A stretch of 64,000 bases of DNA from Craspedostauros australis (lineage: Eukaryota > Bacillariophyta > Bacillariophyceae > Mastogloiales > Achnanthaceae). The notes under the pieces are model-generated. The model did no database searches and was not told the origin of the DNA. It worked only from the letters and a program-made list of their open reading frames with translations. A program made the position numbers and the translations under genes. This document shows, piece by piece, positions 39,159 through 51,107 of this stretch. Position 1 is the first letter of the stretch. The number at the start of each line of letters is the position of its first letter. The stretch lies in assembly GCA_026770025.1 (NCBI GenBank), contig JAMXDE010000010.1:1798001-1862000 (forward strand), read 5' to 3'.

Positions 39159-40876
39159 ACATGCAATTGCGGCACATGATCATTTGATTTCAACAAACGC
39201 AGAGCGCACCATGCTCCACTCCGCTGCATTCGATGGCGAGCAGTCATCCACAGGGATGGACGAACCTCGACCACCAGCTTGCCATTCGGCTGCTGGATGC
39301 AGTCCGCGCCGGTTGCCGTTGTCAATTTCAACCAAGCTTGAACCGCAACTTGGATAATCGACACAGCAGCAATTGCTTCGACCACATGGCAAAGCACGCA
39401 TGCATGCTTGGATGGATGGAAGGATGGAAAGACACAAGTCCTCAGACGCATTGAACTGGATGACGTCGTCTCCTACTGCCCTATGTCAAGTGGCACATGC
39501 GAGGCGCACGCCAAGCAAAGCACGCACTGCGCAAAAACATTGCACAGGCAAGGCGACAGCAACAGCAGTTCCTGACTCTCTCGAGTCGGACTTGGAGCTC
39601 GCCAGCATTGCAGCGACAAGGAAGCAATCCATCCATCGCATGCATGCAGCTCCATGCAAAGGGATAGCCGACACATACCTGTCAGCAAACCACACAACAC
39701 ACTTACTCTCACGAGTAAGGCATAAAGTAACAATCATAGCACCAGCACAACGAACAAATTCAATCCATCCATTTCCTTCATGTTGTTCATACGCACATGT
39801 CGTCGCTTGCGGCGGGCGGACACGCGATGGCGCAATTCTGGCACGCGTTGGCTTGGGTCCAGAATCGCCATTTCCCGTGTGGCACGGTCATCGTTCTTGC
39901 TTTGATCATCTCCGCAGGCAGCACACCAAGAGAAATAGAGAGGACGTGCCCATCGCTTTTGCTGTCCCCAATTGCTCAGATTGTCCAAAGTCCTCGGTGG
40001 GGGTGCGGAGGGCGTTCCCATCAACATTTGAAAATGCGGACAACGTTCATCATCCATTCTTTCTCTCTAGCTTTTCTTGCATAGAATGGAAACTGCCAAT
40101 TGTCCACGTCATATTCATGACTCAAAAAGTATCCGCGATTGAAAAGCCAAATCGCACAACAAGCAATCCGCAAACGCAAACCAAGAGTGAGAGAGATCCA
40201 CGATGACGATGATGATGTCTCGGAACTGCCCCTCTGTCCGATTCATGCATTGGTCCATCCAAATTACTCCACTCTACTCCATTCTACTCTACTCCACTCT
40301 ACTCTACTCTGCCGACCATGCAATCAACCACCAAGGAGAGATCATGACGTGTGCAATCCACAAGCATCCATGTCAACGACCGAATGTTTCAGATATGAAT
40401 GCGCATGGCCAACCGATGGATCTCGCCGCTTGCTGTCGGCCTGGGTCTTGTCACACAAGTCATCCTGTATGCGAACGTCATTGGGATGCGCAAAAGTCTG
40501 AGAATGTGTGCGACCTCTGAAGAAGGAACTTCAACTTTCCGAAAATTTACACCGTAGAGCATTGGTATTGATCGCAGCCACATGAACGCACATACTCTAG
40601 TACTCGTGCCACATCATACTATGCGAGCACACATGCCCTCACAGCAAAGAGCCATCGCGATGTGTGCAGCAAGATGGATTCGTCTGCTCAGGTGCACTTG
40701 CGTTCTCATAAACCTGGCAACTGCGGACCCAAAACGCTGGCGAGAGGAAGAGCACGAATACCAAGGTCGCAGTGCATACATACAATACAATACTCGATCA
40801 AACCACAGCTTGAACCACGAGTCCATCATCAATAACAGCAGCAAGACCAGTAGGAAACCCAACACTATCTTCCACC
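39159..40876. other. Intergenic region with a weak long ORF
   Basis: About 1.7 kb between two + strand genes. An open frame at 39373-40206 (+) is long but starts without a good ATG, is His/Thr/Arg-rich and has no motif. An ACTCT/ACTCC repeat runs at 40264-40311. The promoter and leader of the alpha-kinase gene lie just before 40877. Confidence 0.45.
40264..40311 (+). repeat. Pentanucleotide ACTCT/ACTCC repeat
   Basis: About nine consecutive five-base units of the ACTCT, ACTCC or ATTCT type. Confidence 0.8.
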
Positions 40877-42856
40877 ATGCTGAGCAAAGATAATGAAACC
40901 AGCTTGACTATGCTGAGCATGGAGCTCTCCGAGTTCTCAGTCATCGAAGAGGACTGCTACGTCCTCGACGAGATCGAGGAGGTCGACGACGAAGCCGAAG
41001 AACATGATGGAGAGATCGGGGCCAGCGACATGAAGATGCTCAAGGGCGAGGCGTCGCACGCCAAGCAATCCACCTCCATGCTCCTCGCTGCATTGGAAGC
41101 GGACATGAGCGAAGCACAGGACCTCATCAACAAGCTGAAGAATGGCACTGCGACAGCAACGGACAAGAGCCGTGTGCTTGACCTGAAGAAGAAGATCAGC
41201 AAGTCCAGATCCGCGACCGAAGCGGGCAAGGTTCGCGAAGACAAACTCAAGACGACGATCAGAGCTGAAGAAGAGAGCAGACGAGAGGCTTTCCGCAAGA
41301 TCAAGATTCGTCAGATCAAGGGTATGGTCAACTCGGTCAAGAAAGCGGAGTCTGTGGATCTTGCATTCATCGTTGATGCGACCTCATCCATGGGACCCCA
41401 CATAGAGGCAGTGAAAAAGAACATCATCGCGATCGTCACACAGGTGAAAGGCTCCAATCGTAGTCTCAGCCTTCGGTTGGCCTTCGTTGCGTACAGAGAC
41501 CTTTGTGACACCAACCGATTCGAAGTGCTCGACTTCGTGAAAGATGCAGGACGGTTCCAAACGTTCGTTGGGGGTATCAGGGCATCTGGCGGTGGCGATA
41601 CCCCTGAGGACATGGCTGGCGGCATCCAACACGCCAATGCGCTTTCGTGGCGACAAGCTACGCGGGTTGCATTCATCGTGGCGGATTGTCCATGTCATGG
41701 GCGGGAGTTCCACAGTCTCGGCGATGACCATCCTAACGGAACACCAGGTATAGACATCAAGAAGGAACTGCGTGCACTCATCGGCAACTGCGGCGAGGGC
41801 ACCATGTCTGTCCAATTCGGACGCATCACGGCATTTTGTGACAGCATGATCGCGCGCTTCGTCCAAGACGGCATCCACCTCAATGTTGTCGACTTCAGCA
41901 ACGAATTGAAGGTCAAGACCTCCGTCACTTCGAGCGTCCGCAAGTCCATCTTCAAGACGATGTCGTTGGCTAGTGGAGGCACCAAGGCCGTCTCCTTTGA
42001 CGAAGGTCCCAAGCGCAAGTCGCGCAAGGCGGCCCTCAAGCCATACAGCATCGAACCCAGACTCCCGAAAAGCGACGAGTGGACACCAGTCGCGTCCGTG
42101 AAGGTGTACCAGAACAAGCGCATCAAGAGCATCAACGACCTCCAAGCTCCTTTGTCGTTCGGGATGCTATCATACTTTGATGGCAAGACCAAGACCGACG
42201 AGACCAAGGAATCGAAGATGTTCCTTCGCCGCGCCAAAGCACCCTTTGCCGAAGGCGGGTGCCGTCTCGCGTATCACGCAGAGCTCGCCCGCAAGGAGAA
42301 GTCGCTGGGGGCACCGAAGACGAAGGTCGTGCTCAAATGCTTCAAGCACCATGGCTTTGGTGTCAACGACCGCATCCAGTACCTCAGACAGATGGAGGTC
42401 TCCAACATTGCCCGCTTCTTGGCCAAGGAGTACAACAATTCACCGTTTCGACCAGCGCATTGTGCGCGGATCCAAGTCTTGATGTCCTGCGTCGTCGAGG
42501 AAGAGGACGACGCGAATGAAAAGGACGGCAACCGCCGTTTCTGTGCCGAGGAGGTCCTCCCTTCGGATGGTGACATGGATTTCACCAAATTCAGCAACAA
42601 CACCGGATACTGGGACACCGACAACATGGACGAGACGCTCCTGCGTTTCACAAAGTTCACCCACGAGGCCACCAACTCGTACCTCATGGTGACAGACCTG
42701 CAGGGTGTCAAGAAGAACGGTAAGTTCTACCTCACGGATCCAGTGATCCTTTGCCGCGACATCATGCGATTTGGCAACACCAACCTCGGCGAAACCTTCA
42801 TGATCGAATGCATGGGGTCCACCGAGCATTTCATGAAGGAAAATGGTTGGAGTTGA
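40877..42856 (+). CDS. Von Willebrand A / alpha-kinase fusion protein
   Basis: A single exon of 659 residues, starting at an ATG in a good context. Residues 1-150 are acidic and then helical, possibly a short coiled coil (about 100-145). A VWA domain follows (about 160-340), with VDLAFIVDATSSM as its metal-binding (MIDAS) strand and GGGDTPEDMAGG as the later metal-site loop. The first MIDAS serine is a threonine here, as in related kinases. The C-terminal alpha-kinase domain (about 410-655) shows FAEGGCRLAYHA, the catalytic-lysine strand VVLKCF (about 484-489), FTKFSNNTGYW, FTHEATNSYLMVTDLQGV, LTDP and the Gly-rich end GNTNLG. This is the architecture of VwkA of Dictyostelium, which affects myosin II assembly and the contractile vacuole. 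Whether it acts on a myosin here is unknown. Confidence 0.93.
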   Translation: MLSKDNETSLTMLSMELSEFSVIEEDCYVLDEIEEVDDEAEEHDGEIGASDMKMLKGEASHAKQSTSMLLAALEADMSEAQDLINKLKNGTATATDKSRVLDLKKKISKSRSATEAGKVREDKLKTTIRAEEESRREAFRKIKIRQIKGMVNSVKKAESVDLAFIVDATSSMGPHIEAVKKNIIAIVTQVKGSNRSLSLRLAFVAYRDLCDTNRFEVLDFVKDAGRFQTFVGGIRASGGGDTPEDMAGGIQHANALSWRQATRVAFIVADCPCHGREFHSLGDDHPNGTPGIDIKKELRALIGNCGEGTMSVQFGRITAFCDSMIARFVQDGIHLNVVDFSNELKVKTSVTSSVRKSIFKTMSLASGGTKAVSFDEGPKRKSRKAALKPYSIEPRLPKSDEWTPVASVKVYQNKRIKSINDLQAPLSFGMLSYFDGKTKTDETKESKMFLRRAKAPFAEGGCRLAYHAELARKEKSLGAPKTKVVLKCFKHHGFGVNDRIQYLRQMEVSNIARFLAKEYNNSPFRPAHCARIQVLMSCVVEEEDDANEKDGNRRFCAEEVLPSDGDMDFTKFSNNTGYWDTDNMDETLLRFTKFTHEATNSYLMVTDLQGVKKNGKFYLTDPVILCRDIMRFGNTNLGETFMIECMGSTEHFMKENGWS

Positions 42857-43471: not shown

Positions 43472-45104
43472 CTAATTGCTGAGCTTGCCGTCCATTGTTG
43501 CGGTCTTTGCATCTCGCTGCTGGCGTTCCTTCAATTGGCGCTTCGTGAGCGGAATGAGCCACGTCATGGCCTCCTGCACTCCAACGCCCGTGGATGCCGA
43601 TGCACATCTGAATCTCATGATCGGGTTGTGATAGTGTGGCATGAGCCGATCGGTGGAGAAGAAGTGTTGGGAATAGGGCTCGGCGAGGTTGCCCCCGAAT
43701 ACTTGTCCAAGCACCAGCACGGGGATGTCATCTCCGATGTTCTCCCGAACCTGTTGCAGCAAGGAGTACTGCTGTGCGTAGTCATACTGTTCCTCTTCTT
43801 CATCATCGCTGCCGTCGTCGTCAGCGTCGCCTTCCTTCTTGCCAAGTTTTGGCTCCTCGCCGATCTTCCAAACGAAAATGACGGCGTCGCAATCGTCATA
43901 ATACCTTTCCCACAAATTCTGAAGCTTGCCACCGACGTCGAAGAAATGGCACTTGGCGCCGCACACGTCCAGCTTTGCTAGGTTGGTCCCAACTGCGTAC
44001 GAGTAGAATGAAGAGACAGTCCAAAGCGAGCGAGCGAGCAAGGAAGCAAGCAAGTGATCATGTGATGTACCGTTAGTGGCATGCCATTGTGCACGGACAT
44101 AGTGTTGATCAAGATTCGGCACAGCACGTGTTACCGAAGAGACGGCAGATACTTTGGGCGAACATACATACAAGCACGCGCGGGCTCACGAATCACAACT
44201 TACTCGTCGGACGGATCTTGGAGAGCGGGAACATCTTCTTCTTGGATGATAGATGATGCTGTTGGTCGGAGTCCTGATACAGCGATGCCGGCAGGGAAGT
44301 CGGAGCGTCATTTTGTGGCTGTGGTGTCGGCGTTCCCGACAGCATGGACACGACCTCCGCCAGACTATCGTTGTCGTCGTTGTCGTCATCCTTGAGATCG
44401 ATGCTGTCCATGGATATTTCATGCGAATGCAAGCGCGCACGCGCCGGCGGCATGGGTGGTTCCATCCCTGCTGTCGCGTCACCATTGGCAGCTGATGGCC
44501 GCGCTGTGCCACCATTGGGTGCATCTTTGAGCGGGGACGTCTCATCGCTTTCGAGATTGCGCTGCAGCTGCGCATTGATGCCTTTCTCCACGATGCCGTC
44601 ATCATCATCATCGTCTCCATCGTCATCCATGATGATGTCCTCATCCTGATCGGCGTCGTTGTTCCTGTACTTCTCGGGCGCGGGACAGAAGAGAAGCGGG
44701 AATCTCCTCTTTGGCTTCGTGGGCGTGAAAGATGGTGCTGGAGGCGACTTCAATGGTTGCGCGGCGTCAGCAGCCAATGCTTGTGATCGCGATGTCGCAT
44801 GGGGTGCTTCTTCTCCTGCAGCATTGCCGCTGGTTTTGGCGATCGATTTCACTTTGAATGCAGCCTGCTCCATCTCGCTCATCTCGGGTATGCCGCCCAG
44901 CTCCAGCTGTTGCTCCAGCGAGGGTGGCAGCGCGTTCGTCGCCAGTTGCGCGGGCGTGAGCGGCGGCGGTCTCTTGGGAACCTCCGTGACCTTGATACGT
45001 TCCAGCAACGCAGTCTTTCCCGATCCTGGGGCACCGACGACGAGCACATTGACCTGCACTGGCGCGAGGTAGCTGTCGTACAGCCCCGACACAAGACTGA
45101 ACAT
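43472..45104 (-). CDS. ARFRP1/ARL3-like GTPase with a large acidic insertion
   Basis: Two exons, 44204-45104 and 43472-43992, are joined across an intron of 211 bases, giving 473 residues; ARFRP1 is about 200. The N-terminus MFSLVSGLY matches the MxxLxSGLY start of ARFRP1/Arl3, which recruits golgins and other factors at the trans-Golgi. The P-loop is GAPGSGKTALLE (about 25-36). A long insertion follows (about 40-295), with Pro/Ala-rich, Asp-rich and Ser-rich stretches. The domain resumes with KIRPT-I-GTN at the switch I position; the isoleucine codon is rebuilt by splicing. Then come FDVGGKLQNLWERYYDDCDAVIFVW, a second acidic insertion, VLVLGQVFGG where NKxD is expected, and ASASTGVGVQEAMTWL as the G5 region. 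The missing NKxD and the Gln-to-Lys change suggest altered or lost nucleotide cycling. Confidence 0.88.
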
Positions 45105-46094: not shown

Positions 46095-48794
46095 TTACAT
46101 TTCTAGTTCCTGACGAAGATTACCGCTGAGATCCCTGACGAAACGTCGCTTGACGAGGCTCACTTCGAATTCCTCTTGATCATCGGGGTCGTCGGCATCC
46201 TTCGCAAGACCCGACTCTTCATCGTGCGGATTGCCATGGCGGTCCGTATCGGTCGAATTCTGCGGCGGACTTCGGTTGCTGCGTGGGAATGTAATGGCGC
46301 GGGATGCCCGCTCCCGGAAAGGATTGATCCAACTGAAGCTGCCGGGGTTGCTGTCGCCTTGGCACATGTTGTGATCATCGTTGCAGGGGTTGTCGTGGCA
46401 GCAATCGGCATGATTGCCCGTGGGCTGTGCCTTTTTATCAACCGTGTTCATGTTCCCTCCAGCGTCCACGCTCTTGCTCTTATCTTTGACGTCGATGGTG
46501 CCGCTCTTGTTGCCATCAATGCCATCAATGCCTACGCTGCTGGCGTTGCTCCTGCTGCTCCTGCTCCTGCCACTGCTGTTGCTGCTTGCATGACTCTCGT
46601 CGCCCCCCTTGCTGCCACCGTTGCTGAATGCCGAGTCATCTTCTAGGAAGTTGGAATCGTCATTGGCTGTGGCCGCCTCGGATATCGCATCTGACTTCTG
46701 GCTTACCGCGGTGAAGTGAGATGTATCAGATTCCACCGATTTCTGCCTGGATGTGTAGTGTGGCTCGAGAGCGGCTCCGACGAAGTGGTCCATGATGGCA
46801 GCATCCAGCACCATCAGATCCTGGTACCGACGTTCCATGAAGTTCATCTCATCCTGCTTGCTGTTCAGCTCCACCTCCAGCAGCTCCCTTACGCTTGTTC
46901 CTGTTGACGAACCTGGCGTGCTGCTCGTCAGCTGCGTTCCTACGGTCCTCGATCCTTCCGATGAGTACCTGCTGGCGATGGCGAGATCGGAGCTGCTATC
47001 GTGGACGTGCTTGCTGATGCGCCTACGGCCAGTCATTCTTCTGCGATTGTCGCCTTCGCTACCGCTTGTCTCCCCAGTCCCATCAGATCCGCTCACATCC
47101 TCGTCAAGGAGATTCTTACAGCCCTCTACGCTGAATCCAGCAATGGTAGTGTCATCGCCATCTCCTTCTTCAACGGCACCCATGACATCCTGCGTAGGAG
47201 TGGCATACGCAGTGTGCGGCTGCCCTCGGCTTGCAGACGATGGATAGGTCTGTGAGTCAAATCGTCCAGCATCCATGCTGCTGGTGGTGTTGGCGCTTGA
47301 CGTTGGTCGTGGGAGACGTCGTGCAACAGCAGCTTCCACATCCTGAAGCTTGTAAATGTCAGATCTGCTGGCTTGGGACTCTGCGTCGAAGCTGGGCCTA
47401 ACCTGAACAGAAACATCTTCCTTGTCAGGAGCGCTTTGATACATTTTTACCCTCGAATTGGCTTGGTTTGATTGCCGGATTGGCTTGCGCACCTCCTGGC
47501 TTTCTCGTCGCAGCTCCTGCTGCTGCTCCTTCTCCTGCTGCCGCTGTTCCTGTTCCTGTTCCTGTTCCTGTTCCTGTTCCTGTTCCTGTTGTTGTTGTTG
47601 TTGACGTTGACGTTGCAGCAGCCATAGTTGTCGTTGACGCTGGCGTTGCTGTTGCTCCTTTGATCGTTTGGGATCTTTAGTATTGGCCACCCGTTCGCGT
47701 CGAGGTGTCCGGCCGCCTTTGGATCTTCGCTGTCGTCTCTGCTGCGAAGATCGGTCGTGCCTAACCTTCTGCCGGAACCACGACAGAAGCATCCATGCTG
47801 CCACCAGAACCATGGTGGAGCACACAATGACCATGGCCAAGCCCATGCTATTGAGTTTGAACCGAGGTGACGAGGTCAGTGCCGCAGCATTGCCGGAGGA
47901 GTTCGCAGATGAAACATCGTCTCCTCTCGCAGTCTGGTTTTCACCAGTTGGCGACGCGCTTGGGTGCTGCGAGGCAGCCATGTCTTGCGAACGTATCGCG
48001 GTGATATCGACTTGTTGATGTTCCAACGGCAACTGCGCTATCGCATCGTTTATGGCAGGGAGGTATGTTCCATCCCGCATGTCCCGTTCAATCAATGCGT
48101 AGATGGCTCTGTCCATTGCCTCGCTGTCGGATGACTTCTTGGGGGTGTACGTGATCATCAACGACCCATCAAATCTCGTGCAGCTCTTCGACGAACTCAG
48201 ATTCTGCTCTACAGAGCACAATTCATTCTCTGCGATGCGATTGATGTCGCCCGTCGTGATTGTCCTCAACACGAATGGCCAGGGTCCAGCTGATGCTGAT
48301 GCTGATTCTGCTGATGATGACGATGCATCTGGGCAGTTGATGCTGTACACTTTCTCAATGATAGACGAAAGCACGGCTTCTGCAATCGTCTTCTCCTGCA
48401 CAAAGGAGAGCTCTTCCAAAATAGAAGTCTCCACCGCGTATCCAAAATCGACCAGCAGAGTTGGTGCGTCGTCAGTCAGAGTCACCGTTAGAGCCGACGT
48501 GCACTCCCTGCTCAAATTGAATGTCTGCGTCATGTCCCCAGTGGCTTGTGTCGCAACCTCAGCCCGAGTATTCACGCCAGCGCTGGTGCGTGAGGTCTCG
48601 CTGGCTCCTGTGCTTGGAATAACGGCATTCTCCTTCAGTGTTGTTTCTGAATGAACTTCAACTGAGATTGGCCCGTCATGGTGGGTCTCCACGGACCCCG
48701 AAACAACTTCGATGCCGTCTTCATTCGGGAGGTCCAGTCCATCGTCGAAGACGTTGTGTTTGTGATGAGCGCCGTTTCGTCGTCGAAGAGTCAT
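46095..48794 (-). CDS. Diatom-type single-pass membrane protein with SEA-like outer domain and Gln-rich cytoplasmic tail
   Basis: I start at the ATG at 48792-48794 (MTLRRRNGAHH), giving 899 residues. The frame is open further upstream, but those codons look like leader sequence (Arg/Asn hexamer repeats, no conserved features). Residues about 80-315 contain ALTVTLTDDAPTLLVDFGY, ETSILEELSFVQEKTIAEAV and FDGSLMITYTPK. From memory, this arrangement recurs in many diatom membrane proteins and is not characterised. One membrane helix follows (about 317-340, MGLAMVIVCSTMVLVAAW), then a basic stretch, a Gln/Glu-rich run (about 395-430) and a Ser-rich acidic tail to the end. There is no clear cleavable signal peptide, so topology is inferred. 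The outer segment might be sensory or adhesive; no catalytic domain is present. Confidence 0.78.
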   Translation of the reverse strand: MTLRRRNGAHHKHNVFDDGLDLPNEDGIEVVSGSVETHHDGPISVEVHSETTLKENAVIPSTGASETSRTSAGVNTRAEVATQATGDMTQTFNLSRECTSALTVTLTDDAPTLLVDFGYAVETSILEELSFVQEKTIAEAVLSSIIEKVYSINCPDASSSSAESASASAGPWPFVLRTITTGDINRIAENELCSVEQNLSSSKSCTRFDGSLMITYTPKKSSDSEAMDRAIYALIERDMRDGTYLPAINDAIAQLPLEHQQVDITAIRSQDMAASQHPSASPTGENQTARGDDVSSANSSGNAAALTSSPRFKLNSMGLAMVIVCSTMVLVAAWMLLSWFRQKVRHDRSSQQRRQRRSKGGRTPRRERVANTKDPKRSKEQQQRQRQRQLWLLQRQRQQQQQQEQEQEQEQEQEQEQRQQEKEQQQELRRESQEVRKPIRQSNQANSRVKMYQSAPDKEDVSVQVRPSFDAESQASRSDIYKLQDVEAAVARRLPRPTSSANTTSSMDAGRFDSQTYPSSASRGQPHTAYATPTQDVMGAVEEGDGDDTTIAGFSVEGCKNLLDEDVSGSDGTGETSGSEGDNRRRMTGRRRISKHVHDSSSDLAIASRYSSEGSRTVGTQLTSSTPGSSTGTSVRELLEVELNSKQDEMNFMERRYQDLMVLDAAIMDHFVGAALEPHYTSRQKSVESDTSHFTAVSQKSDAISEAATANDDSNFLEDDSAFSNGGSKGGDESHASSNSSGRSRSSRSNASSVGIDGIDGNKSGTIDVKDKSKSVDAGGNMNTVDKKAQPTGNHADCCHDNPCNDDHNMCQGDSNPGSFSWINPFRERASRAITFPRSNRSPPQNSTDTDRHGNPHDEESGLAKDADDPDDQEEFEVSLVKRRFVRDLSGNLRQELEM
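47535..47595 (+). repeat. CTGTTC hexamer repeat inside a coding region
   Basis: About eight copies of CTGTTC/CTGTTG in tandem encode the Glu-Gln run (GAACAG on the coding strand) of the membrane protein tail. The same hexamer is repeated again at 48900-48930, upstream of the chosen start codon. Confidence 0.85.
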
Positions 48795-51107
48795 CGTGCA
48801 GCTGCTCTCTACTCTCTGCTGTCTGCTGGTAAAGTGGGTGTAAGTGCCACTATGAATTGGTCTTGTGCTTCCACAGATGTGGTCGCCGCGATCGACACAG
48901 TTCCTGTTCCTGTTCCTGTTCTTATTGCGATTGCGATTGCGATTGCTGGTGTTGTAAACTCCCTTTGTGTCAATTGTGACTTGCCGAGCCAGGATCGAAG
49001 TGTTGCAATCTGCGGTAATCCTGTGGTCTCTGGGTGTGTGAACAGATGTGTGAACTGGAGTGCCGACAAGTATGGAGAGGAAGAAGCAAGCAGACACACA
49101 CAAACGCACACACGCACACGGAGGAGAGAGTCTTCGAGCTTGTCTGGGCTTGCCTTTTGCGAGTGCAGTTGTCGATTCTTGTTGTTGGTCCGTTCGTTGC
49201 CGAGCATTGACATACAACACACGCCAAAATACATGACCTGCACTCCACCGCGACAGATGCCGGGAACGTCGCACAACTGTTGCCCACGGCGACCTCACCA
49301 ATGCTCCCTTCTCCCAATTTTTCCAAACCTCCGAAGCCAACTTTGTGAGCGTATCAAATTCGTCGGTTGGTGTGACATCATGCTTCGTGGGAATCCGCTT
49401 AGATTCTCCCATCTTTGTTGTCCGTCCGTTGTCACAGGACATTTTTCGAGTCTTGGAAATACACGACTGTGCATCCGACAGTTACGTCTTCGCCAATCAC
49501 CCAACGAAAGACGACAACAACGCGAAACGAAAGCCAAATTCTGCCATCTCCGCCAGAGTTCCACCGTTTGGTCATATTGGTGTGTTTTCGCACGTGTTTG
49601 TGGTAGATGCTGTCGGTTTCAGGAAGTATCATGATATATCACAATGTCTGTTCATCGTTTGATTTTGCCTCTTTCCAAGCCGATTCAAGGTCAAATGTGT
49701 GAGTGGGCATAATTCGGATCTTTGGCAAATAATCACTTAAACCATATATTTTCTGGTGAAACTGTCAGAGTGTCCTTTGGTGCCAGAGTGAAATCAAGTT
49801 TGTGTGATTGCAATCACGACTAAAAATCGAGTTTTGCGCGCCAAGATTGGATGGATACTTTCTGCCTCCCCAATCACACACACAATCGCCCAACCGCAAG
49901 AGACAACGCGACACATACAACAACTGGAGACAAACCGATTGAAATACCGCATCCACAAAGGAAGATTGCCAGATGCTGCATGTCACATGTCTCCATCCCC
50001 ACCAGCAGGCCGTCGGCAGTTTGTTGGGGAGGAAATGATGCAGAAAACGTCGCATCATAATCGTACATTCTGTTGGCGCTTCGCGTCTCGATGATACCTA
50101 TTCTCTCGTGTTTCGCCTGAGAGTAAATGTGTGGTACGAGGCAGAGGATGGCATGGCGAGTGTGAGTATTGTCGCGATTTTGCTGCGGGATAGCTTGTGG
50201 ATGGTTGCCACGCCATGGTCACGAGCGCCAAGAGTCGAGAATGCGCCCGCAGAGTACAACCAGGAGGAGCCGCGTCCCAGGACAATCGCTCGCAATGGCG
50301 GCCAATAACCAAGCGAATGATGGTGGCATACATGGAATGAGGAATCGCGTGCATGTGTATGGACGTGGTTCGATAGAGATTGCAACCTGAAACCAACCAC
50401 TTCGCATCTCTTTGCAACGCAGCTGTCAATCCTTTTTTGGACATGTCTCAATCCGATCTTTCTGCGCGAGTCGGAGAGTGTTGTGCACGCTGGTTCTCCC
50501 ATGACGTCATGGCAAGGCCAGAGTTCCCGGGACCAGGCAGACAGGACGAGATGAAAAGATAACGTATCATGATACATGGCGCATTCCATGTGCTATCTCT
50601 GTGGGTCAGACTCCGTTGCGAAGAGTTCAGTTGGGTACGCTTCCTTCTATTTTTGATGTTTGTGGCATCGCTGCCCTCCACCATTGCAGGCGTACGCTCC
50701 CACGTACGACTACTATCCGTACGCATTTCTGGCACCACGCCAAACGCAAATTTGCTCCTGCGGGAACAAGCAGGTGGAGTGGGAACACGAACAGGCACTG
50801 CCAAATCATGGGGAAGGCTGCCGACGAACAACAGGTTGCGACCAGGCGTTGCGGGATATGCCGGCATCATACCCACATTTGCGTGGGTGCAAGATAGAGC
50901 AGAACAGAGCAGAGCAAACGAATGTTGATTGAATTGCAGAAACTCCATGCATCTCTGAAGGTGGGCGCCCGCAGTCTCCAGCACAGGAGATCATGTAGAG
51001 GCTGCCGATGCTGAAACTCTCTTTGCCCACGTTGAGCCTCGAGGTACCAACAAGGTGATGCACGATACGAGGAAGCAGACAGGGACAACGAAGAGGTACT
51101 TCTCTCG

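Follow-up and report, generated by a model that had tools for sequence, protein, structure and literature searches.

ARFRP1 and its yeast counterpart Arl3p belong to the ARF family and are SYS1-dependent trans-Golgi GTPases; in that compartment ARFRP1 heads the ARL1 cascade. A gene of the diatom Craspedostauros australis raises the question of whether a protein in that position must still work as a nucleotide switch: a first-pass annotation of the locus described an ARFRP1/ARL3 relative with a large insertion and without the NKxD motif. We analysed the window in which the gene lies, a 64,000 nt stretch of contig JAMXDE010000010.1 in assembly GCA_026770025.1 (forward strand, 1,798,001-1,862,000), and searched this one genome (74.8 Mb in 90 contigs).

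Gene model and ARFRP1 identity

The gene lies on the minus strand of the window (45104-43472) and is modelled with two exons encoding a product of 473 residues; the coordinates, strand and splice proposed at first pass all hold. Its start ATG at 45104 is the first after an in-frame stop, the 901 nt of exon 1 are followed by a GTAAGT donor at 44203, and the stop codon of exon 2 is at 43472. Seven AG sites were tried as acceptor, four of which keep the frame open, and only the AG before 43992 (CGCAG) gives a complete ARF switch I (...SKIRPT/IGTNLAKLDV, with the slash at the junction). The features are as follows, in window coordinates:

44204..45104, minus strand: exon 1, residues 1-300 and the first base of codon 301 (gene model)
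45054..45104, minus strand: N-terminal helix MFSLVSGLYDSYLAPVQ, NatC-type Met-Phe start without Gly2; putative role taken from PMC7864062
45012..45035, minus strand: G1/P-loop GAPGSGKT, residues 24-31
44250..44972, minus strand: acidic arm rich in Pro, Ala, Asp and Ser, residues ~45-285, net charge -24
43993..44203, minus strand: phase-1 intron of 211 nt, GTAAGT...CGCAG, whose acceptor restores the switch I PTIGTN
43472..43992, minus strand: exon 2 including the stop codon, residues 301-473 (gene model; groups with ARFRP1)
43910..43939, minus strand: G3/switch II DVGG--KLQNLW, residues 319-328, without Gln and two residues shorter than in other ARFs
43754..43852, minus strand: second acidic loop, residues 348-380, net charge -9, exceeding the loop of other ARFs by ~21 residues
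43697..43708, minus strand: GQVF at the G4 NKxD position, residues 396-399
43589..43606, minus strand: G5-like CASAST, residues 430-435

Two other long open frames lie in the window. One, of 680 codons (40814-42856, plus strand), carries von Willebrand A and alpha-kinase domains; the other, of 1128 codons (46095-49481, minus strand), contains long repeats rich in Gln, Glu and Arg, and no Pfam family reaches its cut-off there. Scanning the whole stretch with Rfam and for tRNAs gave no matches.

Judged by its sequence, the gene is almost certainly the diatom orthologue of ARFRP1 (yeast Arl3p-type), and phylogeny gives good support to the family assignment made at first pass. In a maximum-likelihood tree of 19 rows, the core without the arm joins the ARFRP1 of human and yeast with support of 100/99, and an analysis restricted to exon 2 recovers this grouping at 99/99; these two reference sequences are the only ones on the ARFRP1 side of the tree. 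All seven alternative groupings of the diatom protein were rejected by AU tests (p 0.0006-0.035, uncorrected). The arm-less core scores 78.6 bits with yeast ARFRP1 and 77.4 bits with human ARFRP1, the next best of 18 comparators (eight ARF-family paralogues of the same genome and ten references) reaching 57.0 bits, and 200 shuffled cores used as a control gave at most 25.4 bits with the ten references. The Pfam Arf family matches residues 294-342 at 46.1 bits (cut-off 22.3); a match to AAA_16 at the P-loop was dismissed (20.4 bits, cut-off 32.6). The N-terminus, MFSLVSGLY, begins with Met and a bulky hydrophobic residue, a NatC-type start, and has no myristoyl Gly2. No chain named ARFRP1 was found among the 60 PDB matches listed (90 and 107 matched), and structure prediction for exon 2 without an alignment was unusable (mean pLDDT 42.6).

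The end branch of the diatom sequence is the longest in the tree (1.74, versus 0.40 for human and 0.61 for yeast ARFRP1), indicative of extreme divergence; rows this long drew a warning from the program. A branch of this length would also be expected of a decaying or relaxed ARFRP1 heading to loss, in which missing motifs and insertions represent erosion rather than new function, and ARFRP1 has indeed been lost in some of the eukaryotes sampled in the survey PMC8358228. We nevertheless regard decay as quite improbable: the 473 codons contain neither stop nor frameshift, the donor is strong, the N-terminus, switch I and C-terminal region are conserved, and the genome has kept SYS1, ARL1 and GRIP proteins.

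Searches of the genome by profile, by human ARFRP1 and with both exons did not turn up a second, normal ARFRP1; they ignored introns and scored only the best candidates, and could have overlooked a gene broken into many exons. The PF00025 profile gave 30 matches at E<=10, comprising 12 exons of the eight compared ARF-family genes, the window gene itself, and 17 that by eye are Rab/Ras-like, G-alpha, Rag-like, translation-factor and other P-loop or ABC frames. With human ARFRP1 as query there were 22 matches, and the window exon ranked tenth at 31.7 bits, which argues against the gene being easily recognised; another of these matches (C4:3189554) reads as a Rab. Exon 2 and exon 1 as queries gave three and six matches in the genome, respectively, and no relatives of exon 2 were found in viral contigs. 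The other ARF-family genes compared (8 of 8) have ARF1, ARL1, ARL2, ARL8B or SAR1A as best match, never ARFRP1. The genome searches also returned 88 matches to the silicon-transporter family PF03842 (L037, L038 and others), 28 of which span at least 500 of the 513 profile positions without a stop; the family is seemingly much expanded in this genome, a subject on which a literature search gave no useful result. The RuBisCO large chain encoded in the genome aligns along all or almost all of its length with PDB chains 7yk5, 5mz2, 5n9z, 5oya and 6ftl, several or all of which are diatom enzymes.

Lost and retained nucleotide-binding motifs

The replacement of NKxD by GQVF, already noted at first pass, is confirmed: G4 is absent directly after the beta-5 strand IPVLVL, at a position where all eight ARF paralogues of this genome and all ten references keep NKxD. 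The reading frame carries on through the conserved C-terminal part, so the loss cannot be put down to a frameshift, and a splice near GQVF that would restore NKxD was ruled out by eye, as GQ follows IPVLVL directly within the exon. The switch II Gln is gone as well, although in place of the supposed substitution by Lys a deletion of two residues (DVGG--KLQNLW) is the better reading, shown as a gap by both phmmer and MAFFT, leaving DVGG--K in place of the G3 motif DxGGQ with its catalytic Gln. The region after beta-4 also differs, reading VWKI in the diatom protein and VIDS in human ARFRP1. As sequence readings, the losses of NKxD and of the switch II Gln are robust. Elsewhere in the genome, two neighbouring ARF-domain genes on contig C4 at ~466-470 kb (L005:985-2958 and L007:1135-2895) have DxGGR for DxGGQ, and their C-terminal regions are weakly YqcI/YcgG-like (25.1 and 23.0 bits, cut-off 27).

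Other motifs are retained, namely G1 (GAPGSGKT, matching GxxxxGK[ST]), G2 (IRPTIGTN) and the G5-like CASAST. A nucleotide deficiency is plausible from this combination of motifs, and the diatom ARFRP1 probably lacks a normal nucleotide cycle, yet with P-loop, switch I Thr and G5-like motif intact some nucleotide binding may remain. The protein could in that case still bind GTP, or ATP if guanine specificity has been lost, and without the Gln fail to hydrolyse it, making it a permanently 'on' ARFRP1 and a class ii pseudoGTPase. The retained G1, G2 and G5-like motifs together with the missing Gln fit such a protein, but the absence of NKxD, a determinant of both guanine recognition and affinity, and the altered region after beta-4 make it rather unlikely in our estimate.

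The acidic arm and the second acidic loop

The insertion between P-loop and switch I, first put at ~250 residues, measures ~240 and is longer than the whole of human ARFRP1 (201 aa). It sits between alpha-1 and switch I, setting Thr31 and Thr300 268 residues apart; in human ARFRP1 the P-loop-to-switch I loop has 24 residues, and the remaining rows for which it was measured have 15-17. Ala, Pro and Asp each make up 12% of this arm and Leu and Ser 8% each, and it falls slightly to the disordered side of the charge-hydropathy line. No convincing match to it was found elsewhere in the genome (best other E 0.0135).

On coding statistics the arm is probably exonic. Its 242 codons are free of stops, whereas dinucleotide shuffling, repeated 1000 times, gave 6.6 stops on average and never a stop-free sequence. 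In each of three segments the information on bases by codon position is higher than in any of the shuffles, also when Asp/Glu codons are left out. Every segment has its lowest share of G at codon position 2 (0.10, 0.15 and 0.09). Exon 1 contains no GTRAG donor, and the introns read in the ARF and SYS1 genes of this genome start with GTA. The contrary reading, that most of the arm is an in-frame intron that has escaped recognition and the real protein a near-normal-length ARFRP1 still without NKxD and Gln, draws on the synonymous codon score, which for the arm is -27.0 bits in frame, with three of the six frames better and the next frame at -8.4. The core part of exon 1 (+10.3) and exon 2 (+4.6), by contrast, each score best in their own frames. 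RNY preference favours another frame in two of the three segments. Thirty GT...AG pairs within the arm would keep the frame as introns and were judged unlikely; one candidate, AAG/GTCACG...CAACAG (114-846 of exon 1), has a weak donor and would excise 732 nt without shifting the frame, leaving a loop that, counted by eye, has the length of that in human ARFRP1. Removal of the acidic region by an intron, which the first-pass annotation named as an outcome that would overturn its proposal, consequently looks unlikely given the missing stops, the periodicity and the lack of a GTRAG donor, even with this one candidate of ARFRP1 length, and we consider the intronic reading improbable.

The second acidic insertion is also present as proposed, with ~21 extra residues and a DxGG-to-beta-5 spacing of 71, compared with 52 in 15 of 17 comparators (one has 56 and one is a regex error). 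An ARL2-like gene of the same genome (L006, C15:926372-926959) carries a ~40-residue Asp/Asn-rich in-frame stretch between its switches, so acidic insertions are not unique to the diatom ARFRP1 gene.

A candidate SYS1-anchored scaffold among known systems

Other genes of the pathway are present in this genome: a SYS1 gene on contig C29 (75.7 and 37.6 bits), an ARL1 gene on contig C21, GRIP proteins with four matches above cut-off, and Mak10, a subunit of NatC, on contig C9 (68.3 bits). SYS1 (L035, around position 541643) is extended at its N-terminus by ~61 residues, which include a basic GRRRRN stretch and carry a net charge of +6, and this extension may be a partner of the acidic ARFRP1 arm (-24). 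In PMC7864062, the human ARFRP1 helix alone binds SYS1, binding is abolished by Y2A, and the GTP-binding-deficient T31N protein is still at the Golgi, where it arrives via SYS1 without GTP binding. From these helix and T31N data, an ARFRP1 that does not cycle could still be placed correctly, which makes a scaffold workable.

The explanation we favour, and to which we give about an even chance as a whole, is that the gene encodes an ARFRP1 orthologue turned pseudoGTPase and anchored by SYS1. Extrapolating from human and yeast, its Met-Phe N-terminus would be acetylated by NatC, and the N-terminal helix would bind SYS1 at the trans-Golgi with no need of GTP, as has been reported for the human protein. 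The G domain would have little or no affinity for guanine nucleotide and would not cycle, and the protein might then serve as a constitutive SYS1-anchored platform that recruits ARL1 and a tether, the acidic arm acting as a docking segment. Taken by itself, the constitutive scaffold step falls a little short of even odds. More tentatively, and with real doubt, the ARFRP1-SYS1-ARL1 cascade of this species, and perhaps of diatoms generally, may run without a GTP switch at its top, headed by a nucleotide-free SYS1-anchored scaffold whose arm binds partners.

ARFRP1 is an ancestral eukaryotic member of the ARF family and is absent from only a few of the species sampled in a broad survey (PMC8358228). 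If the proposed scaffold is real, an ancient and nearly universal switch became a fixed organiser here. With receptor and target genes kept while the one ARFRP1 detected is missing its guanine-recognition motif and catalytic Gln, the species would offer a natural test of whether the essential work of ARFRP1 is done by the switch or by the SYS1-bound platform. A literature search, covering articles apart from their supplements, found no description of a diatom ARFRP1 without NKxD.

The region between alpha-1 and switch I is the site of the G-alpha helical domain, and in its large insertion there the diatom protein is like G-alpha, for which PMC8358228 describes an ARF-like origin. Its arm is unlike that domain in being low-complexity and disorder-prone, and membership of the G-alpha family was rejected, PF00503 covering only residues 298-344 at 24.6 bits (cut-off 48.8). 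PseudoGTPases, as presented in PMC5593906 and PMC12722892, include p190RhoGAP pG1/pG2, CENP-M and fungal dynein LIC in class i and Rnd in class ii; with G4 missing and G3 altered, the diatom protein resembles them as far as its sequence goes, and would add to them an ARFRP1 that independently acquired a large insertion at the G-alpha helical-domain site. Within the ARF family, the atypical ARLs ARL10, ARL13, ARL15 and ARL16 also lack the Gln of switch II (PMC12722892), but they belong to other subfamilies, and the available text of that source neither names ARFRP1 among them nor mentions loss of NKxD. With ARFRP1 and yeast Arl3p themselves the diatom protein shares its N-terminus (MFSLVSGLY, compared with MYTLLSGLY and MFHLVKGLY, all without Gly2), the switch I region and the C-terminal SA-x-TG-x-GV region, and human ARFRP1 already has a P-loop-to-switch I loop longer than those of the other rows. 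It is unlike them in having neither NKxD nor the switch II Gln, and in carrying the ~240-residue arm and the ~21 additional acidic residues before beta-5.
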